The notes beneath the pieces were generated by a model that saw only the letters and a list, made by a program, of their open reading frames with translations, was not told where the DNA came from and did no database searches. DNA of 64,000 bases from Flavobacterium sp. LC2016-23 (GTDB taxonomy: Bacteria; Bacteroidota; Bacteroidia; Flavobacteriales; Flavobacteriaceae), in NCBI RefSeq assembly GCF_009674775.1, contig NZ_WKKE01000001.1, positions 62,001 through 126,000 of the forward strand, in the 5' to 3' direction. Of this stretch, positions 7,588 through 48,237 are shown piece by piece (the first letter of the stretch is position 1; each line of letters opens with the position of its first letter). The position numbers were made by a program, and so were the translations under genes.

Positions 7588-7635
7588 TTTTTTTAGTAAT
7601 TAAAAAAAAATGTGCAAAATAAAACACTAGTTGTA

Positions 7636-7664: not shown

Positions 7665-7696
7665 CAAACTGAATATAAAAATTAACGATAATAAAA

Positions 7697-9796: not shown

Positions 9797-9828
9797 GTTC
9801 AGAGTGTAGTACGTAAATAAAAATAGTT

Positions 9829-9866
9829 AGCCCGAAATGTTCTTTGGAATGTTTCGGGCTTTTTTA
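9829..9866 (+). terminator. Terminator after the PpiD-like gene
   Basis: AGCCCGAAA/TTTCGGGCT 9-bp stem (9829-9837 and 9852-9860) followed by TTTTTATTT. Confidence 0.88.
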
Positions 9867-10051
9867 TTTCGATTTATTTAGCAGGTTTTATTTGTAATAA
9901 ATATCATTCAAATTTTGTTTAATTATATAAGAATTATAGAAATACAATCTAAAAAATTTGGCTTTTTCAAAATATTAATGTTAATTTGTCTGAATTTTTG
10001 TTTTAGCAAATGGTATAAAACATTAAACAGGTTTAATAAAATAAAAGAGCT

Positions 10052-29680: not shown

Positions 29681-30544
29681 TTAACCTAAATAAGTTTTAA
29701 GGATTTTACTTCTTGAAGTATGTTTTAATCTGCGGATTGCTTTTTCCTTAATCTGACGTACACGTTCACGGGTTAAGTCGAAAGTTTCTCCAATTTCTTC
29801 TAATGTCATTGGATGCTGATCGCCAAGACCAAAATACAAACGAACTACATCTGCCTCTCTTGGAGTTAATGTTTCTAACGAACGCTCAATTTCAGTACGA
29901 AGTGATTCGTGGATTAATTCTCTGTCAGGGTTTGGAGATTCTCCGGAACGTAAAACGTCATAAAGGTTAGAATCTTCACCTTCCACAAGAGGTGCATCCA
30001 TAGATAAGTGACGGCCAGAGTTTTTCATAGACTCTTTTACATCATTTACGGTCATGTCAAGTTCTTTTGCAATTTCCTCAGCAGAAGGCGGACGCTCATT
30101 AGATTGCTCTAGTAAAGCGTACATTTTGTTGATTTTATTGATAGAACCAATTTTGTTCAATGGTAAACGTACAATACGTGATTGTTCTGCCAGCGCCTGA
30201 AGGATCGATTGACGAATCCACCAAACTGCGTAAGAGATAAATTTGAAACCACGCGTTTCATCAAAACGCTGAGCCGCTTTAATTAGACCTAAGTTTCCTT
30301 CGTTAATTAAATCAGGAAGTGTTAATCCTTGATTTTGATATTGTTTTGCCACAGAAACTACGAAACGTAGGTTGGCTTTTGTTAATTTTTCTAAAGCTCT
30401 TTGATCACCGGCCTTTATTCTTTGTGCTAATTCTACCTCTTCATCAGCGGTAATCAGGTCAACTTTTCCGATTTCTTGTAGATATTTATCTAACGATGCA
30501 GTTTCACGATTAGTTACCTGCTTGGTGATTTTAAGTTGTCTCAT
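29681..30544 (-). CDS. rpoD: Primary RNA polymerase sigma factor (Bacteroidota RpoD/SigA)
   Basis: 287 residues. Region 1.2 is near residues 15-45 ([20 protein letters not shown]), region 2 has [22 protein letters not shown] and [11 protein letters not shown], region 3 is mid-protein, and region 4 has the helix-turn-helix [28 protein letters not shown]. There is no region 1.1 or large non-conserved region, as is normal for the primary sigma of this phylum. It should read the TTG-N19-TAnnTTTG promoters seen across the window. Confidence 0.97.
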
Positions 30545-31286: not shown

Positions 31287-31370
31287 ATTTTATTTTTTAT
31301 TCTAACTTACGTTTTATAATCAATAGTATTAAAACAATAAAAAGGTTGCGTGGTGAAATAGAAAATAAAT

Positions 31371-31406
31371 AAAACCCTTGTTTCCAAATTAAGAAACAAG
31401 GGTTTT
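31371..31406 (-). terminator. Terminator of operon A
   Basis: AACCCTTGTTTC/GAAACAAGGGTT 12-bp perfect stem (31373-31384 and 31393-31404), followed on the minus strand by TTTATTTATTTT. It separates operon A from the chimeric sigma ORF. Confidence 0.88.
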
Positions 31407-31433
31407 TAGGAGAAAAAACATTGCTTATTTTTT

Positions 31434-33221
31434 TTAATTTACTGTTGAATCTTTGACTTCAAAAGTTTCTTTTAAGGAAACAGGAGTCCCTTCATTTGTA
31501 AATCCTTCGAGGTTTACTTCGTATTTTCCTGAAACATCAGAAGTAAAAAAGGAGATTATGTTTTCTGTGTTGTCTAAAGTTAATTCCGGCTGCCAAAGCA
31601 ATTGATACCTGTAATCCGGAATTCTTTCGTATTTGCTTTTATCGGTGTAATCTTCTTTGAAAGCGATGATTTTATTCTGAGGTCTTTGAATCTCCGTTTT
31701 TAAAATATAAGGGCCATTTGCCGATGTTACGTAATCCGTGTTTTTAGTAGTGAAATTGATAACGCCATTAAAAGCCTTGGGACCATAAAAATAGACGCCC
31801 GGAACAATGCTGACTTTATAGATATTTTCTGTTTTATAAGTAAATAATTCATTTACATTCTGGATTAAAAGCCCGTCCACCAGGACCAAAGCCGGTTCCG
31901 AAAAATATTCCAGATCGTAATTGATATCTCTCAGGTTTAAAGAATAATTATTGTCTTTTTCACGATAATACATCTCTTTTACAACTTCTGTAATGGTTTC
32001 TTTTAGGGTTGGGAATTTTGTATAATCCCCCAATACATATTCTTTTTCCAGCGGATGATAAAACGGAAAAGTACTCTGATTAGCCGCTATACTGTCTTTT
32101 TTTAGCGGGTAATACGAATTCTCTATCTGATTAGCAATAGATCTTTGTTCGATAGCTTGTTTGTAATCAGTGGTCAGGGATAGCTCATCAGTGGTTTTTA
32201 AGTCAGACAAATTGTATCCTGTGTTTCTGTCAAGTTCTATTTTATAGTCGTTTTTGTCATTTTCCACTACCTGAACCACAACATTCGAATAGTTTGGGTT
32301 TTTATCCAGTATAAAGTTGAACCTTCCCGAAGCATTGGTCTGAACAATTTTAAAGGCAAATTCTTTACCGGGAATAGATAATGCTACGTTTTTATGGCTT
32401 ACCTGCTTAGGGTCTTTGCTATTTGTAATGACGCCTGAAATAATCTCACCTCTAAGCTCAGGAATAAACTGGATTGAATCATTTATACGGTTTGTTATTT
32501 CATTAGTAGAATTGAATTTTACAAACTCTGAGGCGTTCATTTGTTTTTTAGCAGGTAAATTGTCGATTTTCTTTACGGAAAGAGAAAAGCTTCCTTTGCT
32601 GATTTCAGGAGTTAAAGATTTTATTTTTAACTGAACCAGTTCTCTTTCCTGAAAGGTGTTTTTATCTAATGCTATTTCAAAAGTTTTGTTCTTAATCTGA
32701 TTTTCTGTAACAGATTCATTTTCTGTCTCTTTTGTTTTTTTGTTTTGGGAGTCAGCGTCTTTATCTGAGGTGCTTTTTTTACCGGCTACATAGGGATTGA
32801 TTAATACAAGATCCGTTTTGGAAGTTTTAAACTCATTTTTGTTTAACATCCATTTGGTGTAGGCAATAAGTTTGTAGTTGCCTGTTTCAATGGTGGATGG
32901 TATGAAAAAATCACCTTGTCCTTTCCCGTTATCCAGATAAATTTTATTGGTAAAAACAACCTGATTGTCACTATTGATAAGATCAACATAAGCAATTTTG
33001 CTGATTTTGCTCAAAGCGTTATTGGACGGATTAATACAATACAATTTGCAGTGCAGCGTCTCTCCTGCAATTAATGTGGTGTTGTTTAAATGAACAAATA
33101 TATTTTCATTCGTAGCTGTACTAATAGTTTCATTTTTGTTTAATGAACTATTTTGGGCAATAGCAAAAGTATTTATTGCTATTAGCATTATTGTGCTGGT
33201 TATTCGTTTTAATCTATCCAA
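31434..33221 (-). CDS. MG2-like exported protein with barrel-less TonB-plug-like module, operon A
   Basis: 595 residues from a TTG start. The signal peptide ends TFAIAQ. An MG2 (macroglobulin-like) beta domain follows (about 40-135: VHLNNTTLIAGETL; FFIPSTIETGNYKLIAYTKWML), a second beta region (about 180-340, ELRGEIISG), then FPTLKETITEVV and VLVDGLLIQNVNELFTYKTENI with FYGPKAFNGVINFTTK (about 420-500). That last part resembles a TonB receptor plug but no barrel follows. The start overlaps the DUF4249 stop by 13 bases, as in operon B. Function unknown; a trapping or assembly role beside the TonB receptor is inferred. Confidence 0.75.
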   Translation of the reverse strand: MDRLKRITSTIMLIAINTFAIAQNSSLNKNETISTATNENIFVHLNNTTLIAGETLHCKLYCINPSNNALSKISKIAYVDLINSDNQVVFTNKIYLDNGKGQGDFFIPSTIETGNYKLIAYTKWMLNKNEFKTSKTDLVLINPYVAGKKSTSDKDADSQNKKTKETENESVTENQIKNKTFEIALDKNTFQERELVQLKIKSLTPEISKGSFSLSVKKIDNLPAKKQMNASEFVKFNSTNEITNRINDSIQFIPELRGEIISGVITNSKDPKQVSHKNVALSIPGKEFAFKIVQTNASGRFNFILDKNPNYSNVVVQVVENDKNDYKIELDRNTGYNLSDLKTTDELSLTTDYKQAIEQRSIANQIENSYYPLKKDSIAANQSTFPFYHPLEKEYVLGDYTKFPTLKETITEVVKEMYYREKDNNYSLNLRDINYDLEYFSEPALVLVDGLLIQNVNELFTYKTENIYKVSIVPGVYFYGPKAFNGVINFTTKNTDYVTSANGPYILKTEIQRPQNKIIAFKEDYTDKSKYERIPDYRYQLLWQPELTLDNTENIISFFTSDVSGKYEVNLEGFTNEGTPVSLKETFEVKDSTVN

Positions 33222-34435
33222 AATAAAGGTTTAATGTTAGATGAAATTTTAGTACAGTCACCACAAGGGGCAGGAGTAAAAACATAGGTCGTGTTATTAT
33301 TAAGGGCGGCAAAAAACACATACTCTGTTCCCGTCCCTGTAACTATCGAATATATTTGCGGTCCTCTGCAGAATTTGTCGTTAAAGCAGTTCGCTAATGA
33401 TATTGTTTTACTGCAATCAGCAATAAATGGCGGGTAGGGATCGTCTTTAAAGATATCCCTGAAATTAAAAAAGATTCTTTTTGATGAAACGGATGAGACT
33501 TCAAAATAGCCAATTATTTTCTCGTCAGAATTATCATTTGATTTTAAATTACCATAATTAAATCCCGGCTGAACTTGTGATAAAAGACTAGAGGAAGTAG
33601 AAAGGTTTTTTAAGGTTTTGTAATAGGTATAAGAGGCTAGATTCTGAACGTATTCCCTTACTATGATGCTGTATCGTTCGTAAAGTATCGGACTGTTGAC
33701 GTCTATAAAACGGATTGGGAGGTTGATTCGGTCTTCGCTCAGTCCTACATTGCTGATTAATAGTAAGTCATCTGATTTTTTAGTGGTAAAACAAACCCTT
33801 GATTCTCCGTTATCTCTCGGAACAGTCAGATACGTAAAATCAGGACCGGGATTGCTCGGATCTAAGATTAGTTTATTGGGTTTCCAGTCCGGAGATACTA
33901 TTTTATAAGTTTCATCATATTCGAATCTGTAAAATTGTGATTTTGAAGTCGGATCATAACTGGTCACTACTATTTGTACCCCTTTTTGTCCATCGATGGT
34001 TTCGATTTTTGGTTCCACCTGAATTTCAGTAACAGGAGTTAAAATTTCTGGTGCAGACGAGTATGATTTTCCGTCCGGGGTTGTAATATTCAGTTGATAT
34101 GATTTTCCGGGAATCGCCTGAAAAGGATTGTTTGAAACATAAAGCCCGGAGAATTCTTCAAATTCAAATTCATAGCTGTTGTTGTCGCTATCTGTAACGT
34201 AGACAATTGCTCCTTTTTCAGGAGATGGTCCATTTTCCTCCAAACGATAGGATCTGGTGATTTTTATTTCCTGCTTTTTTAATTCATTTGTAATGATTCC
34301 CTGAACAACAGGTATGCTTTCAAAGGTGTTGGTTTGAAAAGCATATTGTTCGGTACAGCTCCCCATAAAAAGGCAGGAAAGTGCCAGGGCAATTGTTTTG
34401 CCTAAAAAGTTAATATGTTGCATTATAAATTTCAT
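33209..34435 (-). CDS. DUF4249 lipoprotein, operon A copy 2
   Basis: 408 residues. The lipobox is FMGSC (Cys27) and the family body begins YAFQTNTFESIPVVQGIITNE, with repeated Ig-like strands (KIETIDGQKGVQIVV; FYRFEYDETYKIV). The last ~75 residues are Cys-rich (CSKTIS, NCFND, CRGP, CGDC) and end SNIKPLFWID. It is nearly the same as copy 1 up to FNFRDIF; the segment after that is much more diverged. DUF4249 proteins pair with TonB receptors and are probably surface or outer-membrane lipoproteins that bind the ligand, but this is not proven. Confidence 0.85.
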   Translation of the reverse strand: MKFIMQHINFLGKTIALALSCLFMGSCTEQYAFQTNTFESIPVVQGIITNELKKQEIKITRSYRLEENGPSPEKGAIVYVTDSDNNSYEFEFEEFSGLYVSNNPFQAIPGKSYQLNITTPDGKSYSSAPEILTPVTEIQVEPKIETIDGQKGVQIVVTSYDPTSKSQFYRFEYDETYKIVSPDWKPNKLILDPSNPGPDFTYLTVPRDNGESRVCFTTKKSDDLLLISNVGLSEDRINLPIRFIDVNSPILYERYSIIVREYVQNLASYTYYKTLKNLSTSSSLLSQVQPGFNYGNLKSNDNSDEKIIGYFEVSSVSSKRIFFNFRDIFKDDPYPPFIADCSKTISLANCFNDKFCRGPQIYSIVTGTGTEYVFFAALNNNTTYVFTPAPCGDCTKISSNIKPLFWID

Positions 34436-34532
34436 AAGCAGGTAAATTTGTATTCTCTTTTTTCTTACTGACTATTTGGTGTAACAACTAAAATGTGTCA
34501 GGTATTGATAATTAATTGTGTTTATTGTTTTT

Positions 34533-35753
34533 TTAATCTATCCAGAATAAAGGCCTGATATTGGATGAAATTTGAGTGCAATCACCACAAGGTGATGGAA
34601 CAAATATAATTGTTGACATATAGTTCTGAGATCCGTAAAATATAAACTCTCGTCCTAATCCCGTAACTAAGGAATATATTTTTGGGCCATCACAACCCAA
34701 ATTCCAGCAATTACTTAATTCCAGTGGAGTACAACTGAAAAAAAATGAAGGATTTGGCTCCGTTATAAAGATATCCCTGAAATTGAAAAATATTCTTTTT
34801 GATGAAATTGACGATACCTCAAATAAGCCAATTATTTTCTCATCCGGATTATCATTTGATTTTAAATTACCATAATTAAAACCTGGTTGTACTTGTGAAA
34901 GCAGACTTGCAGAAGTAGAAAGATTTTTCAGTGTTTTATAATACGTATAAGATTCTAAATTCTGAACATATTGACGGACTATAATACTGTAACGTTCCAT
35001 AATAATCGGATCCTTGATGTTTATGAAGCGTATGGGTAAATTGATACGATCTTCGCTAAGGCCTACATTGCTTATCAGAAGTAAATCATCTGATTTTTTT
35101 GTGGTATAACATATTCTTGATTCGCCGTTAGTTCTGGGAACAGTAAGATAGGTGAATTCAGGTCCCGGGTTGCTCGGGTCTACAATAAGCTTATTAGGTT
35201 TCCAGTCGGGCGCTACAATTTTGTATGTTTCGTCATATTCGAATCTGTAAAATTGTGATTTTGAACTTGGGTCAGAACTGGTCACCCTTATTTGTACTCC
35301 TTTTTCTCCGTCAATGGTTTCGATTTTTGGCTCTACTTCAATTTCACTAACAGGAGTCAGCGTTTCCCTCTCAGACGAATATGATTTTCCCTCTTTGGTA
35401 GTGAAATTTAATTGATAGGATCTCCCGGCCACTGCCTGAAAAGGATTGTTGGAAACATAAAGACCCGAGAAGTCTTCAAATTCAAATTCATAGCTATTGT
35501 TTTCGCTGTCGGTTACATAGACAATTGCTCCTTTTTCCGGAGTTGGTCCGTTTTCCTCCAGACGATAGGACCTCGTAATCTTAATTTCCTGTTTTTTTAA
35601 CTCATTGGTAATGTTTGCCTGAACAACAAGTATATTTTCAAATGTATTGGTTTGAAAAGCGTATTGCTCAGTACAACTGCCTAAAGAAAGGCAAAAAAGT
35701 ACTAAAACAATTGCTTTACACAGAAAACGAATATGTTGAATTACGAACTTCAT
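34533..35753 (-). CDS. DUF4249 lipoprotein, operon A copy 1
   Basis: 406 residues, lipobox SLGSC (Cys27). It follows the TonB receptor gene by 9 bases. It is a close paralogue of the next gene: long stretches such as SYTYYKTLKNLS and SQVQPGFNYGNLKSND are identical or nearly so. The C-terminal Cys-framed segment differs (SCTPLELSNCWNLGCDGPK against DCSKTISLANCFNDKFCRGPQ) before both rejoin at CGDCT-ISSNI-PLFWID. This is a tandem duplication inside the operon; operon B has only one DUF4249 gene. Confidence 0.85.
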   Translation of the reverse strand: MKFVIQHIRFLCKAIVLVLFCLSLGSCTEQYAFQTNTFENILVVQANITNELKKQEIKITRSYRLEENGPTPEKGAIVYVTDSENNSYEFEFEDFSGLYVSNNPFQAVAGRSYQLNFTTKEGKSYSSERETLTPVSEIEVEPKIETIDGEKGVQIRVTSSDPSSKSQFYRFEYDETYKIVAPDWKPNKLIVDPSNPGPEFTYLTVPRTNGESRICYTTKKSDDLLLISNVGLSEDRINLPIRFINIKDPIIMERYSIIVRQYVQNLESYTYYKTLKNLSTSASLLSQVQPGFNYGNLKSNDNPDEKIIGLFEVSSISSKRIFFNFRDIFITEPNPSFFFSCTPLELSNCWNLGCDGPKIYSLVTGLGREFIFYGSQNYMSTIIFVPSPCGDCTQISSNIRPLFWID

Positions 35754-35762
35754 TTATGAGTA

Positions 35763-38543
35763 TTAAAATTTGACATTATACGTTATGGTTGGAATTGGCA
35801 CCGAAAATATAGACGTTTTGTATGCTTTTATCTCTCCATTAGTCGTCACAAAAAAGATAGAATACGGATTGTTTCGGCCTAAAACATTATAAATCGATAT
35901 GTTCCAGAAGCTATGTGACAGCTTTTTGATTTTGTGATTCCCTTCGATGTTAAAACCAACATCTAATCGGTAATAATCAGGAATTCTAAATTTATTCCTG
36001 TCACTATACAAGGTGTATTCCAGGCCATTATAGACATAGCTTCCTATAGGATACGTAATTGGTCTTCCCGATTGATATACAAAATTACTGGAAAGACTGT
36101 ATCTTTTTGTGAATTTATAGTTTAATACCGCACTCACTTCATGTGGCTTGTCAAAATTTGTCGGGAAATAATGGCCATTGTTTACCTTTTCTTCCGCAAA
36201 CTGACTGTCTGATTTAATGAAAGTACGGGCATACGTATAGCCTAACCAGCCATTAAGGTTGCCAGTATTTTTTTTGATTAACAATTCTACGCCATAAGCT
36301 TTTCCTTCTCCCTGAAGTAATTGTGTTTCTGGGTTTTTATTCAATAGCAATTCAGCACCCACCTTATAGTCTAATAAATTATTAGATTTTTTATAATATC
36401 CTTCTAAACTAAGTTCTACTTTGTCATCGTCCAGGTTTTTATAGAAGCCTAATGAAAATTGCTGTGCTTTTTGAGGGGCTATATTTAAATCAGATAACTT
36501 CCAGGCGTCAGTAGGTGATTGTGTTGTATTGCTGGTTAACAGGTGAATATATTGATACGTTTTGTCATAGCTGGCTTTTACAGAGAAATCGTCGGTAAAT
36601 AAGTAGCGTGCTGCAATTCGGGGCTCAAATCCGCCATAGGTTTTGATAGCTTCATTTTTCTTGTAATATTGGGAGCCTATTACCGTATTGTCGTTGATAG
36701 GAGCATTACTTTGATAAATTCTTTCCGTTGCTTCACCCAGGGCTGAATAACTCGAATAGCGTAAACCTAAAGTGATTAGTAGTTTTTCAGTAATATTATA
36801 ATTGTCTGCAAAATAAACCGCTGATTCTAATGCCTTCTCGCCGTCTAGGTTTACTGAAATTAAAGTAGCATCTTCCGGTTTTTTTGGATGCAGATATCCG
36901 GGATCAACATTATAAAGTTTACTTGAGATTCCATAATTAAAAGCGTGCTTTTTATTTAAGGTATAATTCCCATTTAGAATACCCTGGGTTTCATTTAGTT
37001 TATATCCGTAATCAAACGAATTGATTCCTCCGTTGTCATAGTCAATATTGAATTTGTATTCACTATTCGTAAATATCAGATCGGCTTTACTTTTAGCATT
37101 GAATGTGTGATTCCACTTTAGAGAAACCAGTGCATTGCTGTATTTATACACAGAATCCGAAGAAATGCTAAAACGATCTTTACTGTAATATAAAGTGGTC
37201 TCAATATTGTTATTGGTACTTATTTTGTGATTGTATTTTAGGATTCCGTCAAAAAATGAGGCTTCACTGTTTTTTAAAGATTCATCTTTTAATCGTTTTA
37301 GGATCCATTCAGAATAGGTTCCTCTGATGCCGACTAATAAGCTTGCTTTGTTTTTTATTATTGGCGTGCTGATCGAAAGGTTGCTTGTTACAGATCCGAT
37401 TCCTCCTTCACCTGAGAATTTTTCAGGATTTCCATTTTTTGTGGTAATATCAAAAACAGAAGATAGTCTTCCTCCAAACCTTGCCGGGATACTCCCTTTG
37501 TAGATGTCTACTTTGCTGGTGGTGTAGGGATTAACAGCAGAGAAAAAACCCAGGAAATGCGAGGTATTGTATAAAACAGCATTGTCTAAAAGGATTAAGT
37601 TCTGATCGTCTTTTCCTCCGCGTACATTAAATCCTGCGGAACCTTCACCGGTGGTTTTTATTCCGGGTAAAGTAGTGGCAACCCTGAAGATATCGCGTTC
37701 CCCAAGAACCAGCGGAATATTTTTTATTCCTTCAACATCTATACTGGAAACTCCGGCTACGGCAGTTTTTACATTTCGATTCGCATTTTTATTGATGACT
37801 ACTTCGTCGAGCTCATTGATGCTTTCGTAAAGCGTTACATCCAGCTTGCCATCGTCGTAGACCATAATTGGTTGTGTGTCTTTTCTATGGTTGATGGACT
37901 CTATCTCTATATAATTGAGGCCGTAAGGAACTTCAATTTTATAATAACCCTGTTCGTCAGTTGTGGTGCTGATGTTTTTATCGCGCACTTTAATGGTTAC
38001 GTTAGAAAGAGGCTTTTTAGTTTTTTCATTCTTAATATTCCCTGATAATGTGTACGATTTTAATTCTTCTCCTTTTTTCTCTTTACCAATATAAGTGATG
38101 CCATTACTGGTAGTGTTTTGCTTTTTTGCATCCAGCTGCTGGTGAAACAAAGGTTTTGTTGTGCCTTTGTTTTCGGCAACAACTGTTTGAGCAGGGGGTA
38201 CGGTTTCAAAATAATTATCAGGCAGGGAACTATGAATGATAGTATTTTTTGTCAGTATTATTTTTTTATTGGTAATGAAGTAATTCAGGTTTGTTTTTTC
38301 GAAAACAGCGCTTAATACTTCGTCAATGGAAGTGTCGGTGTAAGTTCCGTTTATTACAACAGTTTCAGATTTTATCCAGTTTTCATCAAAATAAAATCGG
38401 TATCCCGCTATTTTTTCGAGACTTTCTATTGCTGTTTTTAAGTCAGCATTTTTAAATTCAATTGAGATGTTGTTCTTTTTTTCCTGACTAAACGATACCG
38501 TATGAAAAGCTAATAAAAATAGGGCTAATATAATTTTTCTCAT
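35763..38543 (-). CDS. STN-domain TonB-dependent outer-membrane receptor, operon A
   Basis: 926 residues. The signal peptide ends TVSFSQ. An STN domain (about 25-100: FKNADLKTAIESLEKIAGYRFYF) is followed by a carboxypeptidase-regulatory-like domain (about 160-245), a plug (about 260-375: FNVRGGKDDQNLILLDNAVLYN; PARFGGRLSSVFDI) and a 22-strand-type barrel ending PTITYNVKF. STN domains usually contact an anti-sigma factor, yet no intact sigma/anti-sigma pair is adjacent. I chose ATG 38543, 4 bases after the upstream stop, because it gives a clean signal peptide and matches operon B; ATG 38561 would overlap the upstream gene. Confidence 0.9.
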   Translation of the reverse strand: MRKIILALFLLAFHTVSFSQEKKNNISIEFKNADLKTAIESLEKIAGYRFYFDENWIKSETVVINGTYTDTSIDEVLSAVFEKTNLNYFITNKKIILTKNTIIHSSLPDNYFETVPPAQTVVAENKGTTKPLFHQQLDAKKQNTTSNGITYIGKEKKGEELKSYTLSGNIKNEKTKKPLSNVTIKVRDKNISTTTDEQGYYKIEVPYGLNYIEIESINHRKDTQPIMVYDDGKLDVTLYESINELDEVVINKNANRNVKTAVAGVSSIDVEGIKNIPLVLGERDIFRVATTLPGIKTTGEGSAGFNVRGGKDDQNLILLDNAVLYNTSHFLGFFSAVNPYTTSKVDIYKGSIPARFGGRLSSVFDITTKNGNPEKFSGEGGIGSVTSNLSISTPIIKNKASLLVGIRGTYSEWILKRLKDESLKNSEASFFDGILKYNHKISTNNNIETTLYYSKDRFSISSDSVYKYSNALVSLKWNHTFNAKSKADLIFTNSEYKFNIDYDNGGINSFDYGYKLNETQGILNGNYTLNKKHAFNYGISSKLYNVDPGYLHPKKPEDATLISVNLDGEKALESAVYFADNYNITEKLLITLGLRYSSYSALGEATERIYQSNAPINDNTVIGSQYYKKNEAIKTYGGFEPRIAARYLFTDDFSVKASYDKTYQYIHLLTSNTTQSPTDAWKLSDLNIAPQKAQQFSLGFYKNLDDDKVELSLEGYYKKSNNLLDYKVGAELLLNKNPETQLLQGEGKAYGVELLIKKNTGNLNGWLGYTYARTFIKSDSQFAEEKVNNGHYFPTNFDKPHEVSAVLNYKFTKRYSLSSNFVYQSGRPITYPIGSYVYNGLEYTLYSDRNKFRIPDYYRLDVGFNIEGNHKIKKLSHSFWNISIYNVLGRNNPYSIFFVTTNGEIKAYKTSIFSVPIPTITYNVKF

Positions 38544-38547
38544 TTCT

Positions 38548-39318
38548 TTAATTGACTTCATTAGGGATAAGACTGTTTATTTCTTTGATTAAATTTTCAA
38601 TAAAAACGTTCTTATCGGATTTTTCTAATTGAGTGTTAGAGTTATAGTATTTTTTTATTTTGCTTTTGTGCTCTGGAAAAATTTCAATAACGTCACTTTT
38701 CGAACTTATTTTGTAATAGGCGTCTTTGTACTTTAAGATGTACTCATTTTTTTCTTTGAATTCGTCAGAGCTATTCTGATTAGTCCCGTCAGAAATTGTT
38801 TTGGTATCGATAACTTTTGTCTTGTTTTTATGGTGTTTGATGTAAAGTATGTTGTTTTTTGAAAAGATAATTTCCTGATAATAACCAGTCATGTAAGCCG
38901 GGCATGCAGGATTGTTGAAATTGATATTAATAAATTTTTTGTTGTTAAGAGTAAACCAGGCCGTTTTCTCTTTGATCAGGCTCATACCCAAATAATCGTA
39001 TTCACCAGTAGCTTTCAAAACTATGATGTCATTATTAATATCATATTTAAGATCCATATTGTAGTAATCCTGACCCTCGTAGTTAAGATCTCCTTTGCTG
39101 TAGTTGTTGGAGAAATAATAGCTATGGCTTTTATCCAGTGTCCTGTAGAGATTAACATGGCGGGGGGCATTGTACAGTTCTAAGTTTTGTTTACCAACAG
39201 TCTTGTCAAACCAGTTGTATAAAGAAGAAGTATTGCTTGTCTGGCTATGTATTGTACAGATATTTAATAATAATCCAAATAAAATAAGGAAAATAGATTT
39301 ATTTTGATAATTTTTCAA
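38548..39318 (-). CDS. Small exported protein of unknown function, first gene of operon A
   Basis: 256 residues with a signal peptide ending CTIHSQ. The body is polar and beta-rich (SLYNWFDKTVGKQNLELYN; GQDYYNMDLKYDINNDIIVLK; GYYQEIIF-NNILYIKHHK). The first gene of operon B (45217-45942) shares the same layout and motifs. No known domain is recognised. It lies 37 bases after a -7 box shared in form with operon B. Confidence 0.75.
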   Translation of the reverse strand: MKNYQNKSIFLILFGLLLNICTIHSQTSNTSSLYNWFDKTVGKQNLELYNAPRHVNLYRTLDKSHSYYFSNNYSKGDLNYEGQDYYNMDLKYDINNDIIVLKATGEYDYLGMSLIKEKTAWFTLNNKKFININFNNPACPAYMTGYYQEIIFSKNNILYIKHHKNKTKVIDTKTISDGTNQNSSDEFKEKNEYILKYKDAYYKISSKSDVIEIFPEHKSKIKKYYNSNTQLEKSDKNVFIENLIKEINSLIPNEVN

Positions 39319-39355
39319 AATATTGTGTGGTTTTGATGATTTGTATTGATGATTT

Positions 39356-39363
39356 CAAAAGTA
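39356..39363 (-). promoter_or_regulatory. -7 box of operon A
   Basis: TACTTTTG on the minus strand with the flank AATACTTTTGAAA. It ends 37 bases before the first ATG. The same box in nearly the same position precedes operon B. Confidence 0.55.
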
Positions 39364-39513
39364 TTAAAAAATGGGATAAAAATCACACAGTAACTGTTAA
39401 AACATACTATTTTTTATTTTTTTAAGGCAATAATTCGTCTTATTCCACAAACTGTTCCAAAAGGTGGGACTGCTAATTAGAACAGTTCATTGCCCGAAAT
39501 TTATACCAAAAAT

Positions 39514-41250
39514 TTAATTGGAATTGGATTTTTTTACTTCGATAATCTCCCTTATAAACACAGGTTTTCCGCTTGCTGAGAAACCTTCTAATACGATCTC
39601 AAATTGTCCGGATATATCTGATGTGTAAAATTTAATAGTTGTATCAGTTAAATCGGCACTGGGTAACCACAAAAGTTGATGTCTGTAATCCGGAATTCGC
39701 GTGTTTTTACTGTCTGAATAGTCCGGTTGAAAGTATTCTTTTTTGCCATGAGGTCTCAAAAGTTCCGGTCTTATTATAAAAGTACCTTTAAGTTTTGTTT
39801 TGTAATCTCCGTTTTTTGTGGTAAACGCCACAACTCCGTTAAATGATTTTGCACCATAATAATAAAGTCCTTTTACAACATTAATTTTATAAATATTCTT
39901 AGGGCTATAGCTGAAAAATTCGTTTAAATCATCAAGAATAAGTCCGTCAACCACAACTAAAGGTTCTGACGAAGATTCATAATTTTCATCATAATCAAAT
40001 ACATGCAAAGAATAGTTTTTATTATTTTTTCTAAAGACCACTCCACTTACCACTTCTGTAATGGTTTCTTCCATGGTTGGAAATCTTGTAAAATCATCCA
40101 GTTTATATTCTTTGGATAAAGTGCCATAAAACGGAGCAAAGTTAGCAGGAGTAAGCAAACTGTCTTTTTTTATGTTGTAATAGGCGTTTTCTACCTGACT
40201 TGAAACCAATCTTTCGGTTATATTTTTGTCGGATTCCGGATTGAATTTCAGATCAGAAAATTTTAAGTCAGAAAGATCCGCTTCCTTTTGTTTGTCCATT
40301 TCAATGGTATAACTTTCTTTGTTATATTCCAGTACCTGAACGATAATATTTGAGTTTGGATTTGCTTTTTCTATATTAAAAATAAACTTCCCTTGCTCAT
40401 CTGTCTTTGCTACTTTTACATCATAATTTTTACCTATGATAGAAAGACTGATCTTTTTATTTTTAACTTCTTCACTAGCAGATGTTATTCTGCCGGATAT
40501 TATTTCTCCTCTTAATTCAGGTAAAACAAAATTTGAGGTATTAACGATATTGCTATTAGATGAATTCTGATTTTTTGACTGATAATCGTTAAAAATTATT
40601 TTGTTTTGAGCTAAAAAACCATCTGTCTTTCTTACCGAAATCATATAATTTCCTTTTAAAAAATCATCAGAACCGGCATTGACTTTTAATTCGGCCTGTT
40701 CCCGGGTATTAAATATTTTGTTCTTTAAATCAAACGAAATGTTGTCATTAGTTGTGCGTGTTATTACCAGCTCTTTTGGATCGATAACAGGATCAGAAAC
40801 TGCATTTTCTTTATAAGGATTTACAATATAAATATCAGAATTGAAATAAGCTCCGGAGCCATTATTTGACAGCATCCAGTTTGTATATCCAATAATTTTA
40901 TAGGTTCCGGTTTCTAATGTAGTTGGAATAAAAAAATCGCCATGACTGCTTCCGTTTTCCAGAAATAGTTTATGAGTAACAATGGTCTTTTTATTAGTAT
41001 CAATAAGTTCAAAATAAGCAACTTTAGTATATTTTGTGGGTGCATTTGTTGTTTTGTCCATACAAAATATTTTATAGTACAAAGTCTCTCCTGTTAAGAA
41101 AGAGTTTGTATTGGTGCTGATGAAAACCGACTCGTTTAAATTTTTGTCGATAGTTTTAAGTTCCGCTAAAGCATTGTTTTTCTGAGCAAATACAATTTGC
41201 TGATAACTTAGTACTAAAGTTATCACTAATAAATATCTTAATCTATCCAA
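39514..41250 (-). CDS. MG2-like exported protein with barrel-less TonB-plug-like module, operon B
   Basis: 578 residues from TTG 41250. The signal peptide ends QIVFAQ. Same domain order as the operon A protein: MG2 domain (SFLTGETLYYKIFC; FFIPTTLETGTYKIIGYTNWML), ELRGEIISG region, FPTMEETITEVV, then VVVDGLILDDLNEFFSYSPKNI and YYGAKSFNGVVAFTTK, with no barrel after. The longer frame starts inside DUF4249 and yields no signal peptide. No ATG occurs between the DUF4249 stop and the MG2 domain, so TTG is the only sensible start. Function unknown. Confidence 0.75.
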   Translation of the reverse strand: MDRLRYLLVITLVLSYQQIVFAQKNNALAELKTIDKNLNESVFISTNTNSFLTGETLYYKIFCMDKTTNAPTKYTKVAYFELIDTNKKTIVTHKLFLENGSSHGDFFIPTTLETGTYKIIGYTNWMLSNNGSGAYFNSDIYIVNPYKENAVSDPVIDPKELVITRTTNDNISFDLKNKIFNTREQAELKVNAGSDDFLKGNYMISVRKTDGFLAQNKIIFNDYQSKNQNSSNSNIVNTSNFVLPELRGEIISGRITSASEEVKNKKISLSIIGKNYDVKVAKTDEQGKFIFNIEKANPNSNIIVQVLEYNKESYTIEMDKQKEADLSDLKFSDLKFNPESDKNITERLVSSQVENAYYNIKKDSLLTPANFAPFYGTLSKEYKLDDFTRFPTMEETITEVVSGVVFRKNNKNYSLHVFDYDENYESSSEPLVVVDGLILDDLNEFFSYSPKNIYKINVVKGLYYYGAKSFNGVVAFTTKNGDYKTKLKGTFIIRPELLRPHGKKEYFQPDYSDSKNTRIPDYRHQLLWLPSADLTDTTIKFYTSDISGQFEIVLEGFSASGKPVFIREIIEVKKSNSN

Positions 41251-42452
41251 AATGAAGGTTTTATGTTTGATGAAAAAGAGGTGCAATCTCCACATTGTAT
41301 GGTATATAATATCAATTTCGGAAGCTCTTGCGTTGGGAAAAACACTCTTGCCCGGCTTTCGATCAATTCTACTATAGTCGGGCCCTGACAAGTTGAATTT
41401 GGGCTTGTACTATAGCAATTATTGAAATAAAAATTGCCGGCTTCAAACTCAGGAATTACAGCCGGGCAGTAATATTGGTATTCCGGAGGGGATGTTTTGG
41501 GAAAAAGATCAGTAAAGTTGAAAAATATTCTTTTTTCAGAATAAGACGACACCTCAAAAAAACCAATTACTTTTTCACGGGGATTATCAACAGAACTGAT
41601 ATTTCCACGAAAGAAACCGGGCTGTGTCTGGGATAATATGCTTCCATTATCTGATATTTCTTTCAGTGTTTCATAATAGGTATGTGCAGCAAGACTTTGG
41701 ACGTATTGTTTGACAAGAATACTATATCTGTTTCGAATCATAGGGTCTTTGCTGCTAATGAATTTAACGGGAAAATTGCTCACCCGGTCTTCAGATAAGT
41801 CGTTGGTGCCTGTTAGTAATATTTCATTAGATTTCTGATCGGAATAACAAGTTCGGGCCTCTGTAGTCCTTGGTCTGAACGATACAATATTGCCCGCGGG
41901 AATAGCTTCCTCAGCATTCCACATAGGCGCTACAACTTTATACGTTTCGTCATATTTATATCTGTAATATCTGGATGTATTTGTGGGGTCCGAGCTGTTT
42001 ACTTCAATTTGCACACCCGGTATTCCGTCTTTGGTGATTACGTTTGGTATTACACTTGCAATCTGCGTCTGGGTGGTCAGTTTTTCTGTAGTTGAAACAT
42101 AGGTTCTTCCGTTTTTGGTTAAAATATGTAATTGGTACTGTCGTTCGGGAACTGCCTGAAATTTAACCGCAGATACGTAGGAAGAACCAACTTCGGCAAA
42201 ATCGTATTTGTTTCCTAAATCATCGGTTACATTTACAGTAGCCTGAGATTCAAATTGCGGAAAGCTTTCTTCCAGAGAATACGTTCTGGAAATTTTTACT
42301 TCATGGTTTTTATATTCGTTTGTTAAGGTAGCTTCTACTATTATAACATCTTCAAAGTCGTTATTTTGATAATTATACGGCGTCGTGCAGCTGAAAATTG
42401 ATGCTAAGAGTGCAATTGCGGGAAAGCTATATAGAAGGATCTTTTTCATCAT
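41238..42452 (-). CDS. DUF4249 lipoprotein, operon B
   Basis: 404 residues, lipobox SIFSC (Cys22), then TTPYNYQNNDFEDVIIVEATLTNE. It is paralogous to the operon A pair throughout (YDETYKVVAPMWN; YVQSLAAHTYYETLKEIS; GFFEVSSYSEKRIFFNFTDLF) and ends CGDCTSFSSNIKPSFWID. The Cys-framed C-terminal segment is longer than in operon A (CPAVIPE, NNCYS, TCQGP). It starts 2 bases after the TonB receptor stop; ATG 42449 is an alternative. Confidence 0.85.
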   Translation of the reverse strand: MMKKILLYSFPAIALLASIFSCTTPYNYQNNDFEDVIIVEATLTNEYKNHEVKISRTYSLEESFPQFESQATVNVTDDLGNKYDFAEVGSSYVSAVKFQAVPERQYQLHILTKNGRTYVSTTEKLTTQTQIASVIPNVITKDGIPGVQIEVNSSDPTNTSRYYRYKYDETYKVVAPMWNAEEAIPAGNIVSFRPRTTEARTCYSDQKSNEILLTGTNDLSEDRVSNFPVKFISSKDPMIRNRYSILVKQYVQSLAAHTYYETLKEISDNGSILSQTQPGFFRGNISSVDNPREKVIGFFEVSSYSEKRIFFNFTDLFPKTSPPEYQYYCPAVIPEFEAGNFYFNNCYSTSPNSTCQGPTIVELIESRARVFFPTQELPKLILYTIQCGDCTSFSSNIKPSFWID

Positions 42453-42454
42453 CT

Positions 42455-45205
42455 TTAAAATTTAAAATTATAAGTAATAGTGGGTACAGGCATTCCAAAA
42501 ATAGAAGTTTGATATGCTTTTACCTGTCCTTCTTTCGTTACAAAAAAGATGGAATACGGATTGTTTCTGCCTAATACATTATAGACTGAAATGTTCCAAA
42601 AGCTATGTGCCAGTTTCTTTATCTTATGGTTTCCTTCGATATTTAATCCTATATCGAGTCTGTAATAATCAGGAATTCTAAATTTATTTCGGTCACTGTA
42701 GAGCGTATATTCTGCTCCTTCATACGTGTATTTTCCAATAGGATACGTAACGGGTCTGCCGGTTTGATAAACAAAATTAGAGGAAAAGCTGTAACGATGT
42801 GTGAATTTGTAATTCATTACGATACTTACATCATGAGGTTTGTCAAAATTGGCTGGGAAATAATTCCCGCCATTTACCTGTTCATCATTAAACGGACTGT
42901 CCAGTTTTATAAAAGCTCTTGAATAGGTATAGCCAATCCATCCGTTAAGCCTTCCGTATGATTTTTTTAATAAAAATTCTACTCCGTAGGCTTTTCCTTC
43001 CCCCTGCAATAATTCGGTTTCCAGATTTTGATTTAAAAGTATATTGGCTCCTACTTTGTAGTCTAAAATATTCCTGGAAGTTTTATAATACCCTTCCAGG
43101 CTTAGTTCTAAATGCTCGTAATCTAATGTTTTAAAAAGACCTAACGAATACTGTAATCCGCTTTGCGGTTTAACATTCAGATCCGATAATTTCCAGGTAT
43201 CTGTTGGTGATTGTGTGGTATTGTTGGATAATAAATGGATGTATTGAAAATTTTTGTCGAAGCCGGCTTTTATAAAGAAACTATCATCAACAATATATCG
43301 TAATCCAATTCGGGGTTCAAAACCTCCGGAGGAATTAATGACCTCATTATTCCCGTATTTTTTTTCCTCTATGACGGTTGATGGTGTTTTTGGAACTCCA
43401 TCCTGATAAATCTTTTGGGTTGATTCTCCCAAAGCGGCATAAAACGAATATCTTGCACCGATATCAAGCAGTAATTTTTCTGTAATTTCAAACTTATCCG
43501 AGAAAAACAATGCTGATTCCCATCCTTTTTCAGCATCAATTCTTATGGGAGCTATCAATGAAGATTCACCATTTGGACTTAATTGTCCGGGATTAATTTT
43601 ATAAAGTTTCCCGGAGAGTCCGTAAGTAAATTTATGTTTATCACTGTACAGTGTATTAAATTTTAAATTGACCTGGGTTTCGTCAATTTTATATTTAAAA
43701 ACAAATGATTCAGGATTAGTGGATTCATAATCAATACTGAATTTATATTCGCTGTTGGTTACGTTAAATTCACTGCTTGTTTTTTCATTAAAAGCATGTT
43801 TCCATTTCAAAGAAACAAGCCTGTTGCTGTACTTGTATAAAGAGTCAGGCGTTATCGTGTACGCATCTTTGCTGTAATATACAGTTCCTTCAACAGCGTT
43901 GTTTTTGTTTATTTTATGACTGTATTTTGCAATTAAATCATAAAAAGAGGCATGGCTGTTTTTTAAATTTTCATCGTCCAGGGTTTTTAAAATCCAGTCA
44001 GAATAGGTGGCTCTTCCTCCAACCAATAAGCTTGCTTTTCCTTTTACAACAGGAATTGAAGCAGTAAGATTGCTTGTCACGGGACCTAAGCCTCCTTCGC
44101 CGGTAAATTTTTCTGTATTGCCATTTTTAGAAATAATATCAAAAACAGAGGATAATCTGCCTCCATATTCGGAGGGAATTCCTCCTTTATAAATGTCTAC
44201 TTTGTTAATAGTATAAGGGTTAAGAGAAGAGAAGAATCCGAACAGGTGAGTAGGGTTGTATAACGTTGCATTGTCTAGTAATACAAGATTTTGATCTTCC
44301 TTTCCTCCGCGCACATTAAAACCGGACGAACCTTCACCTGCAGTTTTTACTCCGGGAATGGTCAGGGCAACTTTAAGAATGTCTCTTTCGCCAAGAACCA
44401 AAGGAATCGTTTTTACTCCTTCTGCTTCAATTGTGGTAACGCCCGTTATCGCAGTCCTGACATTCTGATTGCCTTTTCCGTTTACAACAACTTCATCCAG
44501 TTGGTTTACTTTTTCAGTGGTCGAAAAATCAAGAGTACCATTGCTGTAAATCATTATTTTTCGGGAAGCAGGTCTGTAAAAAAGGGATTCAATTTCGATA
44601 GTACTTATTCCGGTCGGAAGTTTTAAGCTGTAAAATCCCTCTGCATTAGTAATCGTGCTGGCAGAGGTGTTTTTTACTTTAACAGTAATATCTGCCAAAG
44701 GTTTATTGTCTTTTAAGTCCGTAATATGTCCTGAAAGCGTATAGAAATCAATTTCAGAATCTTCAGCTTCTTTTCCAATTAAGGCAATTGTAGCAGTTGT
44801 ATCTGTTTTGTCTTTTTTAACCGAATCATATTGTTGGAAAAAGATTGGGGTTTTTGCTTTTTCAGGACCCTTTTTGACTTTTCCTTGGTATTTGTCGTAA
44901 ATAATACTGTTTTTCGTTAGTATGATTTTAGTGTCATCAATAAAAAAATTAAGCTCTGTATCTTCAAAAATTTTAGCCAATACTTCCTGTATGCTTTTAT
45001 CGGAATAACTTCCTGATATCAAAACGGTTTTGTCAAACCAATCCTCCTGAAAATAAAAGGTATAATGGGTTGAAGCTTCTATTTTTTTTAAAACCTCGAT
45101 TCTGTTAGTATTACTGTAACTGATGCTAATGTTTGTTTTTTGACCCTGCGCATACATGAATTGATTTAAACCAAAAAATAATAAAATAATAGTAAATATT
45201 CTCAT
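42455..45205 (-). CDS. STN-domain TonB-dependent outer-membrane receptor, operon B
   Basis: 916 residues, signal peptide ending FMYAQ. The domain order matches operon A: STN (about 25-100: EVLKKIEASTHYTFYFQEDWF), carboxypeptidase-regulatory-like (about 155-235), plug (GFNVRGGKEDQNLVLLDN; YGGRLSSVFDI) and barrel ending PTITYNFKF. The last barrel strands are almost the same as in operon A (YTLYSDRNKFRIPDYYRLD; SFWNIS-YNVLGRNNPYSIFFVT), while outer-loop regions differ. It starts 11 bases after the small exported gene. Confidence 0.9.
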   Translation of the reverse strand: MRIFTIILLFFGLNQFMYAQGQKTNISISYSNTNRIEVLKKIEASTHYTFYFQEDWFDKTVLISGSYSDKSIQEVLAKIFEDTELNFFIDDTKIILTKNSIIYDKYQGKVKKGPEKAKTPIFFQQYDSVKKDKTDTTATIALIGKEAEDSEIDFYTLSGHITDLKDNKPLADITVKVKNTSASTITNAEGFYSLKLPTGISTIEIESLFYRPASRKIMIYSNGTLDFSTTEKVNQLDEVVVNGKGNQNVRTAITGVTTIEAEGVKTIPLVLGERDILKVALTIPGVKTAGEGSSGFNVRGGKEDQNLVLLDNATLYNPTHLFGFFSSLNPYTINKVDIYKGGIPSEYGGRLSSVFDIISKNGNTEKFTGEGGLGPVTSNLTASIPVVKGKASLLVGGRATYSDWILKTLDDENLKNSHASFYDLIAKYSHKINKNNAVEGTVYYSKDAYTITPDSLYKYSNRLVSLKWKHAFNEKTSSEFNVTNSEYKFSIDYESTNPESFVFKYKIDETQVNLKFNTLYSDKHKFTYGLSGKLYKINPGQLSPNGESSLIAPIRIDAEKGWESALFFSDKFEITEKLLLDIGARYSFYAALGESTQKIYQDGVPKTPSTVIEEKKYGNNEVINSSGGFEPRIGLRYIVDDSFFIKAGFDKNFQYIHLLSNNTTQSPTDTWKLSDLNVKPQSGLQYSLGLFKTLDYEHLELSLEGYYKTSRNILDYKVGANILLNQNLETELLQGEGKAYGVEFLLKKSYGRLNGWIGYTYSRAFIKLDSPFNDEQVNGGNYFPANFDKPHDVSIVMNYKFTHRYSFSSNFVYQTGRPVTYPIGKYTYEGAEYTLYSDRNKFRIPDYYRLDIGLNIEGNHKIKKLAHSFWNISVYNVLGRNNPYSIFFVTKEGQVKAYQTSIFGMPVPTITYNFKF

Positions 45206-45216
45206 TGGGATAATTT

Positions 45217-45942
45217 CTACAGATTTAAATTGTTAATGTATTTCATTAGGCTTTTGATAAATAACGAGGGGTCTTCTTTTTTTAAGTTTCGGTTCTTAAA
45301 ATAGAAATCATTTATTTTTCTTTTGTCGTCAGGATATAATTTTATGATTTCTTTTTTCTCATTTATTAAATGAAAATCCTTTTCCTTTAAAAGGATATAA
45401 TCATATTTGGGAAGATACTCGATGTATGAAATGTTCTCTTTCATGGCATTGTTTCTCTCCTTGTAATACTTGATGTAAAGTGTTGTATTGTTAGTAAGAT
45501 TTACTTCTTCGTAATAGCCTTTTTTGAAATTCGTAGAATTTAGTTCTTTTAGGTTAATAAATTTTTGATTACCAATTTTAAAAGAACTGACATAATCCTT
45601 AACGATATTTATTTTTGTAGTGTTGGATTCGCTATACGGCTTTAAAACTAATTCATCAGCATAGATGTCATATTTTAAGTATAAATCAAAATAGTCCTGG
45701 CCATTATAAGTAACACTGCCGTTTTTAAAATCATCAATATAATAACGATTCTGATTGTGGGCTGTTTTATCAAAGTTTAAGTGGGCTGGTCCATTTTTGA
45801 GATCTAAAGATTCTATTCCAAGATTTTTATCAAACCAGTTATAAGTAGAAATTTCATTATTGGTTTGGCTGTGAATACTGTAAATGTTTAGGAATAATCC
45901 AAATAAAATTAAAAAATACAGTTTTTTTTGAAGTTTTTTCAA
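45217..45942 (-). CDS. Small exported protein of unknown function, first gene of operon B
   Basis: 241 residues, signal peptide ending YSIHSQ. Paralogue of the first gene of operon A: STYNWFDKNLGIESLDLKNGPAHLN, NGQDYFDLYLKYDI, KKGYYEEVNL-NNTTLYIKYYK. No known domain. It is 38 bases downstream of a -7 box. Confidence 0.75.
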   Translation of the reverse strand: MKKLQKKLYFLILFGLFLNIYSIHSQTNNEISTYNWFDKNLGIESLDLKNGPAHLNFDKTAHNQNRYYIDDFKNGSVTYNGQDYFDLYLKYDIYADELVLKPYSESNTTKINIVKDYVSSFKIGNQKFINLKELNSTNFKKGYYEEVNLTNNTTLYIKYYKERNNAMKENISYIEYLPKYDYILLKEKDFHLINEKKEIIKLYPDDKRKINDFYFKNRNLKKEDPSLFIKSLMKYINNLNL

Positions 45943-45980
45943 AGGATTTTTGGTTTTTTGTGTTTTTGGTTTGGTGTTTC

Positions 45981-45988
45981 CAAAAGTA
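45981..45988 (-). promoter_or_regulatory. -7 box of operon B
   Basis: TACTTTTG on the minus strand with the flank GATACTTTTGGAAA, ending 38 bases before the first ATG. It matches operon A in sequence and distance. Confidence 0.55.
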
Positions 45989-46034
45989 TCAAAAAAATAT
46001 TATAAAACCATTTTTATTTATTCTTTCCAAACGA

Positions 46035-46068
46035 AAAACCCCAATTCAAATAAATGAATTGGGGTTTT
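46035..46068 (-). terminator. Terminator of pnp
   Basis: AAAACCCCAATTCA/TGAATTGGGGTTTT 14-bp perfect stem with a 6-nt loop. On the minus strand it is followed by more T. It lies 33 bases beyond the pnp stop. Confidence 0.9.
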
Positions 46069-46101
46069 CTATGAATAAACCTTTAGTAAACTAAGATCTG
46101 A

Positions 46102-48237
46102 TTACTCTTTTTTGTCCTCACGCGGAGGTCTTTGTAAAAGTGCTTTTCTGGACACTTTTTCTTTTCTTGTTTTAGGATCAAGACCTAAGTATTTCACTTC
46201 AAAAACATCTCCCATGTTTACAACATCGGTAACGTTTTCAGTACGTTCCCAGGCTAGCTCAGATACGTGAAGCAATACTTCATTTCCTGGCGCGGAAGTA
46301 TATTCTACTACAGCTCCAAAGTCAAGCATTTTGATGACTTTTACTTCATAAGCTTCTCCTACCTGAGGTTTGAATGTAATAGACTTAATTTTAGCCAGTA
46401 CTGCTTCAATTCCTGCAGGATCTGTACCTAAGATTTCGATAACACCTTCTTCGTTTACTTCGTTGATTACGATAGTTGTTCCCGTAGCTTTTTGTAATTC
46501 CTGAATTACTTTTCCACCAGGTCCGATTAATGCTCCAATAAAGTTTCCGGGAATAGTTCTGGTAATGATTTTTGGTGCGTATGCTTTTACATCTTCTCTT
46601 GGAGCAGCAATAGTTTCTGTTAATTTCCCTAAGATATGTAAACGTCCTTCACGAGCTTGTCCTAAAGCCTGCTCCATAATATCATAACGTAATCCGTCAA
46701 TTTTGATATCCATTTGACAAGCAGTAATACCGTCAGCAGTTCCCGTTACTTTAAAGTCCATATCTCCTAAGTGATCTTCATCACCTAAAATATCAGACAA
46801 TACAGCAAATTTCTCACCATCAGTAATTAATCCCATAGCAATACCTGAAACAGGTTTTACCATTTGAACTCCGGCATCCATAAGAGCCATTGTTCCGGCA
46901 CAAACTGTTGCCATAGAAGAAGAACCATTAGATTCTAAAACTTCAGAAACAATACGGATGGTATATGGACAATCAACAGGAATCATGTTTTTCAAAGCTC
47001 TTTGAGCCAAGTTACCATGACCAACTTCTCTTCTTGAAGTTCCTCTTAGAGGTTTTGCTTCACCGGTAGAGAAAGGAGGGAAGTTATAGTGTAAATAGAA
47101 TTTCTCTTCACCTTGTTCGGATGGAGAATCAATTTGGTTTGCTTCTCTTGAAGTTCCTAAAGTTACGGTAGCCAGGGCCTGAGTTTCTCCACGGGTAAAT
47201 AAAGCAGAACCGTGAACTCTTGGCAAATAATCAGTCTCACACCAGATTGGTCTGATGTCAGTTGTTTTTCTTCCGTCTAAACGAACACCTAATTCCAATA
47301 CTACGTTACGAACAGCTTCTTTGTTTGTTTTGTAGAAGTATTTAGAAACTAAATCACCGTCAGCCGCTAATTCTTCTTCAGTAAATAAAGCTTTTATTTC
47401 TTCTTTTACTTCAGCAAATGCAGCAGTTCTTTCGTGTTTGGCTGAACCAACTTTAGCAATAGCGTAAATCTTATCGTAAGCTGCAGCTTTTACTTTTTTG
47501 TAAATTTCTTCGTTTTCTTTCTCACCTTCGTAAGTACGAATTTCTTTCTTTCCAAAAGCAGCTTGCAGGCGTAATTGTGCTTGAATCTGAACTTTTATAG
47601 CTTCGTGAGCAAATTTAATGGCTTCAACCATTTCTGCTTCTGAAATTTCTTTCATCTCACCTTCAACCATGGCAACTGAGTCCAAAGAAGCTCCAATCAT
47701 CATGTCGATGTCAGATTTTTCTAAGTCTGTTCTGCTTGGGTTGATTACAAATTTTCCGTCGATACGTGCTACACGAACTTCAGAAATTAAGTTGTAAAAA
47801 GGAATATCTGAAACGGCTAAGGCTGCAGAGGCAGCTAAACCGGCTAAAGCATCAGGCATAACTTCTTCGTCATGAGACATTAACTGAATCATAACTTGTG
47901 TTTCAGCATGATAATCGTCTGGGAAAAGCGGACGTAAAACACGGTCTACTAATCTCATTGTTAATACTTCGCTGTCGCTAGGTCTTGCCTCTCTCTTGAA
48001 GAAACCTCCCGGGAAACGACCAGCTGCGGCAAATTTTTCGCGATAATCTACCGTTAATGGTAAGAAATCAACGTTTGGGTTAGCGGTACGAGCTGAAACT
48101 GCTGTTGCAAGTATCATCGTGTCGCCCATTCTTACTACTACAGAACCATCCGCTTGTTTTGCTAAACGGCCTGTCTCGATTGTGATGCTTCTGCCATCAC
48201 CTAAATCGATTTTTTCTACAAATAATTGTGGAATCAT
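46102..48237 (-). CDS. pnp: Polyribonucleotide nucleotidyltransferase (PNPase)
   Basis: 711 residues, full length. Two RNase PH domains ([64 protein letters not shown]) are followed by KH ([15 protein letters not shown]) and S1 ([20 protein letters not shown]) RNA-binding domains. It degrades RNA 3' to 5' using phosphate. The order rpsO then pnp on the same strand is the common bacterial pairing. The 5' leader contains a stem with a CAA-rich loop (48264-48319). Confidence 0.97.

Follow-up and report, generated by a model that had tools for sequence, protein, structure and literature searches.

The window analysed here is a stretch of 64,000 nt from Flavobacterium sp. LC2016-23 (NZ_WKKE01000001.1, 62,001-126,000), and all positions given below are window positions. 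Between pnp and an rpoD-like gene it contains nine ORFs on the minus strand, which form two head-to-tail operons. Using S for the small exported protein, T for the TonB receptor, D for the DUF4249 lipoprotein and M for the MG2 protein, operon B (45942-39514) reads S-T-D-M and operon A (39318-31434) reads S-T-D-D-M (Table 1). A broken remnant of an ECF sigma cassette adjoins operon A (30630-31286), and no Rfam elements were found in 31000-46300.

Table 1. Genes and signals of the two operons and of the borders of the variable site.
Feature	Position	Strand	Remark
pnp	46102..48237	-	upstream border of variable site
Terminator-like hairpin and T run, between pnp and operon B	46036..46066	-	read directly from sequence
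TACTTTTG, Bacteroidota -7 promoter-like box, operon B	45981..45988	-	38 nt before S start
Operon B S, 241-aa exported protein, TTG start, no lipobox	45217..45942	-	no Pfam/NCBIfam family
Operon B T, STN-like N-terminus, CarboxypepD_reg, LDEVVV TonB-box-like stretch, plug, barrel	42455..45205	-	
Operon B D, DUF4249 lipoprotein	41238..42452	-	Pfam 153 bits vs cut-off 28.5
Operon B M, MG2/plug-like exported protein without barrel	39514..41250	-	TTG start inside D end, 13-nt overlap
TACTTTTG, -7 promoter-like box, operon A	39356..39363	-	37 nt before S start
Operon A S, 256-aa exported protein, TTG start	38548..39318	-	
Operon A T, TonB receptor, 932 aa	35763..38561	-	
Operon A D2, DUF4249 lipoprotein, first D in transcription order	34533..35753	-	
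Operon A D1, DUF4249 lipoprotein, 78% identical to D2	33209..34435	-	
Operon A M, MG2/plug-like exported protein, 595 aa	31434..33221	-	13-nt overlap with D1
Terminator-like hairpin (AAAACCCTTGTTTC..GAAACAAGGGTTTT, T-rich tail), after operon A	31371..31406	-	read directly from sequence
rpoD-like sigma factor gene	29681..30544	-	downstream border of variable site; proteins 99-100% identical genus-wide

The first-pass annotation had described two paralogous operons with a common gene order and with D doubled in operon A, and this holds for all nine ORFs. In the BLAST comparison of A with B, the four families match pairwise along their full length (E-values from 1e-43 down to 0), as had also been claimed, and the identity is 38% over 250 aa for S, 58% over 928 for T, 44-45% over about 410 for D and 41% over 598 for M. 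The genes lie where they had been placed, except that the start of M in operon B is at about 41250 (TTG) and not at 41391; the ORF 39514-41391 is this gene plus an unsupported N-terminal extension. Junction spacing is kept, both M genes overlapping their respective D by 13 nt. The further statement that the loop regions differ is wrong for T, in which the barrel is 64% identical between A and B with one gap column and the plug is 75% identical; the STN/CarboxypepD part is 40% identical with 13 gap columns.

Both T proteins exceed the Pfam cut-offs for CarboxypepD, Plug and a barrel model (PF00593 in operon A, PF25183 in operon B). STN scores 27.6 bits in T of operon A, just under the cut-off of 28.4, and has no match in T of operon B, though the two N-termini align. 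A TonB-box-like motif is present in both (LDEVVV in operon B, LDEVVI in operon A); across the 125 complete modules described below, every T ends in F and the strict TonB-box pattern is found in 65 of the 125 T proteins and in none of the 125 M proteins. DUF4249 is well over the Pfam cut-off in all three D proteins of the window, and a strict pattern detects a lipobox in 117 of the 175 D proteins of the parsed modules. After the Cys, D reads C-T/S-E/T-P/Q-Y, with one acidic residue at +3 in most D proteins and none in D of operon B, while the consensus for surface-lipoprotein export in F. johnsoniae is SDDFE (PMC5080379). With an export signal this poor compared with SDDFE, D could face the periplasm. 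No useful sequence relatives of S, D or T were found in the PDB.

S and M had been said to have no assigned role, and indeed no informative match to either was obtained in Pfam, NCBIfam or the literature. For S, no Pfam or NCBIfam family was detected. The model of S (operon A homologue) is confident (mean pLDDT 85.6, pTM 0.79) and predicts helices at the N-terminus, followed by a series of beta strands and a helical C-terminal part; neither the PDB (best E 0.16, TM 0.11) nor the viral fold library gave a significant fold match. S represents the module-associated branch of a wider family of small exported proteins that has no name; members of this family were found in 47 of 198 genomes of the phylum, many of them stand-alone.

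For M, Pfam MG2 is sub-threshold in both proteins of the window (24.7 and 26.5 vs 32.8 bits), and the model (pLDDT 79.8) is matched by Foldseek to macroglobulin-domain proteins (E 8e-12). The relatives of M form a family of 780-930 aa, and the one that was scanned carries MG2, CarboxypepD and Plug with no barrel. M had been annotated as a barrel-less MG2/plug protein; this agrees with the Plug match of the long relatives, while in the window proteins themselves the plug stays below the Pfam thresholds. We infer a plug in M from these long relatives, from the plug of the colicin I receptor, which M matches weakly by profile (E 0.037), and from an hhalign alignment that places M 255-498 in register with the CarboxypepD-plug part of T at low probability (E 0.013, prob 3%). 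A thioester or CGEQ motif was found in none of 125 M proteins, and our literature search returned nothing on MG2-plug proteins. In nearly all modules, S and M have N-terminal signal-peptide-like stretches and no lipobox, and no type-9 C-terminal domain was seen by eye in either; because of these features, S and M are probably periplasmic.

Upstream of S we found the box TANNTTTG, which we take to be the Bacteroidota -7 element, in 78 of 114 distinct regions (about 11 in shuffles) at a median distance of 37 nt. The same box precedes T in 1 and M in 7 of the 114. Among the 125 modules, the start codon of M is TTG in 112, and the last D gene and M share a 13-nt overlap in 92; in the window, terminator-like hairpins lie between pnp and operon B and after operon A. 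Given the promoter-like box at S only, the D/M overlap and the flanking hairpins, every module is most likely transcribed as a single unit.

In order to follow up the proposal that the gene set is conserved in a fixed order, the co-occurrence check suggested in the first-pass annotation was run, and S-T-D-M recurs class-wide. A single-sequence search found S in 9 of 60 relatives, and a profile search found it in 43 of 120 genomes of the genus Flavobacterium; in the first eight other genomes examined, S-T-D(1-3)-M is located at the pnp/rpoD site in all eight. A sample of the phylum contains S in 18 of 198 genomes, including five other families of the class in which the module was then seen. In the fetched neighbourhoods, S-T-D(1-4)-M is present in two further genera of the same family and, at unrelated loci, in these other families, with the order S-T-M-D at one locus (L128).

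Named genomes were also scanned independently, with M as the only query, and this yielded 75 loci, nearly all from Flavobacterium. T, D and M are in order in all 75 (T is frameshifted in two), with at least one D directly after T in 75 of 75, and the same order and strand including S are kept in 73 of 73 uncut loci, S being absent only in two contig-edge loci. Separately, 125 complete S-T-D(1-4)-M modules from Flavobacterium, two related genera and several other families of the class were parsed, with 114 distinct T, some genomes having been reached by two routes. The parser requires the order S-T-D-M, so this number describes abundance, and the scan with M alone is the unbiased test of order. 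Most parsed modules (87 of 125) contain one D, with two in 29, three in 6 and four in 3. Some T-D-M sets exist without S, and S-like and long M-like proteins also occur alone. Within the genus, the module is present in 20 of 24 genomes of at least 4.4 Mb and in 9 of 61 smaller ones, and the median genome size is 5.0 Mb with the module vs 3.2 Mb without it (p 4e-6, without phylogeny correction).

Within the genus, the four genes diverge jointly. Correlations between their distance matrices are 0.69-0.92, and 0.58-0.91 after regressing out the Pnp distance, while Pnp distances correlate with those of the module genes at only 0.06-0.35. T clusters agree with M clusters (adjusted Rand 0.98) and with S clusters (0.97), and by this typing operon B of the window is type T8 and operon A is type T20. 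Two modules were captured at each of nine loci, one of which is that of the window, and the two are always of different types, a result that is not significant alone given the type frequencies. In the ML tree, A groups with F. cupreum and relatives (nearest 96% identity) and B groups with other species (83%), so that the two are in separate well-supported groups. Judged by these sequences, A and B are two old types, each closer to modules of other species, rather than the products of a recent duplication. Two ligand specificities in the receptor loops, as first suggested, are not supported, the barrels being nearly indel-free and the types old and divergent.

Module types were also compared between loci whose pnp-rpoD interval is complete. 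Of the 10 pairs of such loci in which the two Pnp proteins reach 99% identity or more, 8 have no module type in common. Where a genome lacks the module, pnp and rpoD either lie side by side or enclose other cassettes. The simplest reading of these comparisons is that whole modules are replaced as a unit at the fixed pnp-rpoD site. Joint divergence can arise from such exchange as one block, without physical contact between the proteins.

The median distances within the genus are 1.27 for S, 1.06 for M, 0.92 for D, 0.57 for T and 0.10 for Pnp. The T barrel is almost indel-free across about 106 modules, and the T N-terminus diverges about twice as fast as the barrel. Special periplasmic recognition was considered as an explanation of this N-terminal variation and rejected, because a control receptor/DUF4249 pair without S and M has a similar ratio (1.6-2.6 vs 1.7-2.2). 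When each type is represented by a single module, the divergence of D tracks that of the barrel of T (partial 0.58) and scarcely that of its N-terminus (0.18), in 400 of 400 resamplings. Tracking of the T N-terminus by S and M is true over all pairs and is lost with one module per type, where S and M follow the N-terminus and the barrel about equally; only the link between D and the barrel survives.

Taken together, we consider it fairly probable that operons A and B represent two types of a single four-gene outer-membrane TonB module, in which S and M assemble with a T-D complex. T would be the TonB-energised transporter, with D as its lipoprotein partner in the outer membrane, packed against the barrel of T. 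S and M, exported and probably periplasmic, would join this complex. M may correspond to the front, periplasmic half of such a receptor (CarboxypepD and plug), preceded by a macroglobulin domain and lacking the barrel; it would bind the periplasmic face of T, either as acceptor for incoming cargo or as a stand-in plug that gates T. We infer import rather than export from the kinship with importers and the bias towards large genomes, and complex formation and the sub-cellular sides are proposed in the same conditional sense. The first-pass annotation had thought of peptides or proteins as ligands; a macroglobulin fold by itself says little in favour of a protein ligand.

The typed replacement could also be read as an "allotype" locus, at which many divergent and mutually incompatible versions of a four-protein TonB complex are swapped between close relatives under identity rather than diet pressure, with S, which diverges fastest and has no matching fold, setting the type. 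We regard this as doubtful, and the same doubt attaches to the pressures that belong to it, which might be avoidance of phage, bacteriocins or competitors, or private ligand exchange.

A signalling receptor, in which T would sense a ligand via STN and signal through S and M to a sigma/anti-sigma pair or another regulator instead of importing it, appears unlikely to us. The STN-like domain in T and the ECF sigma cassette just downstream in 18 of 75 loci, a broken remnant of which lies next to operon A, are what such a receptor would lead one to expect; however, 57 of the 75 loci show no ECF sigma cassette and no FecR-type gene is present in any parsed module. A regulatory role for the neighbouring HTH and response-regulator genes was also discarded, since the same genes occupy the site without the module and thus look like independent cargo of the site.

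It is quite improbable that T, D and M instead serve to assemble an envelope product or to export it, M acting as a chaperone or plug in the periplasm. Such an assembly or export machine would accommodate the resemblance of M to a barrel-less receptor front half, and the outer-membrane assembly machine of F. johnsoniae is known to recruit unexpected lipoprotein and barrel subunits (PMC12611786). However, T keeps the plug, the barrel and the TonB-box-like motif as in transporters, and the accessory distribution of the module (43 of 120 genus genomes, mostly large) fits nutrient uptake better. The weakest alternative, a very improbable one, is that the variable pnp-rpoD site, which also holds unrelated cassettes or nothing, gathered unrelated envelope genes whose movement as a block would give joint divergence without interaction, and it appears largely refuted, since other families across the class have this gene set at different loci in unchanged order, and since the modules preserve their internal spacing and carry a single promoter-like box each.

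The four-gene TonB module can be compared with several known systems. TonB receptor/DUF4249 pairs are widespread, and no cargo or mechanism for them is described in the open-licence literature searched, where DUF4249 is named in one paper. The genome of LC2016-23 itself has two further pairs (L024 and L025), both without S and M. That the two proteins are partners, as the first-pass annotation held, has independent genetic support from BT2172/BT2173 of Bacteroides thetaiotaomicron, a TonB receptor with CarboxypepD and plug beside a DUF4249 lipoprotein, which function together genetically (PMC11003636). Unlike such pairs, the module adds S and M in a fixed order and has up to four D genes. It shares with SusCD and RagAB the logic of a barrel plus a lipoprotein and the CarboxypepD N-terminal extension, but the two T match the SusC/RagA model TIGR04056 only weakly (30.0 and 54.5 bits), far below its cut-off of 368 bits, and its lipoprotein is of the DUF4249 family, no SusD model being matched by D.

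M belongs to the same family as the long, uncharacterised MG2-CarboxypepD-Plug proteins of Bacteroidota, which unlike M mostly occur singly or as tandem pairs with no T or D beside them, and M of the genus is without about 250 aa of the middle part present in them. Like the alpha-2-macroglobulin and complement family, M has MG-type domains, but it has no thioester motif, only about one third of the length and an overall TM-score of 0.23. As far as the literature shows, the module is undescribed in Bacteroidota, which is weak evidence since only open-licence papers were covered. What is new is the two conserved partners S and M and the pattern of typed replacement, the pair of TonB receptor and DUF4249 being already known.

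For the biology of these bacteria, TonB receptor/DUF4249 pairs thus gain two conserved partners, namely S, with a confident model and no match among solved structures, and M, a barrel-less macroglobulin/plug protein, and the whole set appears to be inherited and replaced as one typed unit. From this we predict a T-D-S-M complex with type-specific pairing, so that no mixing between types would occur in two-copy strains. Natural double-copy strains such as the one studied here would be ready-made tests of cross-talk between the types.

Across Flavobacterium, the interval between pnp and the rpoD-like gene, in which both modules of the window lie, is a variable cargo site bounded by two near-invariant housekeeping genes, and its contents in other genomes are exemplified in the table. 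No integrase was noticed among the ORFs listed for these intervals in Flavobacterium. Beside operon A lies a fused ORF, which looks like a deletion remnant of an ECF sigma/barrel gene pair, because at locus L016 each of the two genes stands intact on its own.

Features of the window and of other loci (L numbers)
Feature	Locus	Position	Strand
Fused ORF: ECF sigma factor N-terminus, outer-membrane barrel protein C-terminus	Window	30630-31286	-
ECF sigma factor and outer-membrane barrel protein genes, unfused	L016	15322-17332	
Receptor/DUF4249 pair lacking STN, S and M	L025 (own genome)	6754-9993	
Interval empty (examples)	L297, L299, L300, L302, L304		
Interval with response-regulator cassette (examples)	L296, L303		
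Interval with HTH (examples)	L298, L305		
Disrupted S	L091	about 3347	
Disrupted S	L104	13393-14094	
Four S-like proteins, tandem	L290	4644-8068	
S-like protein	L142	8344-9123	

TTG is the predominant start codon of M (112 of 125 parsed modules) and of the small exported protein S (87 of 125), and is perhaps a brake on their translation. In two loci S is disrupted by stops or a frameshift, and the adjoining T, D and M genes are open. The S-like proteins of L290 and L142 are encoded next to an apparent small-conductance mechanosensitive channel gene.

The receptor family of the L025-type pair has a strong match in 97 of 101 Flavobacterium genomes, and such pairs appear nearly universal in the genus. 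Long MG2-CarboxypepD-Plug proteins lacking the barrel were also observed (L223, L228-L231), commonly as tandem pairs with no receptor/DUF4249 pair nearby; they are a widespread, uncharacterised family of Bacteroidota.
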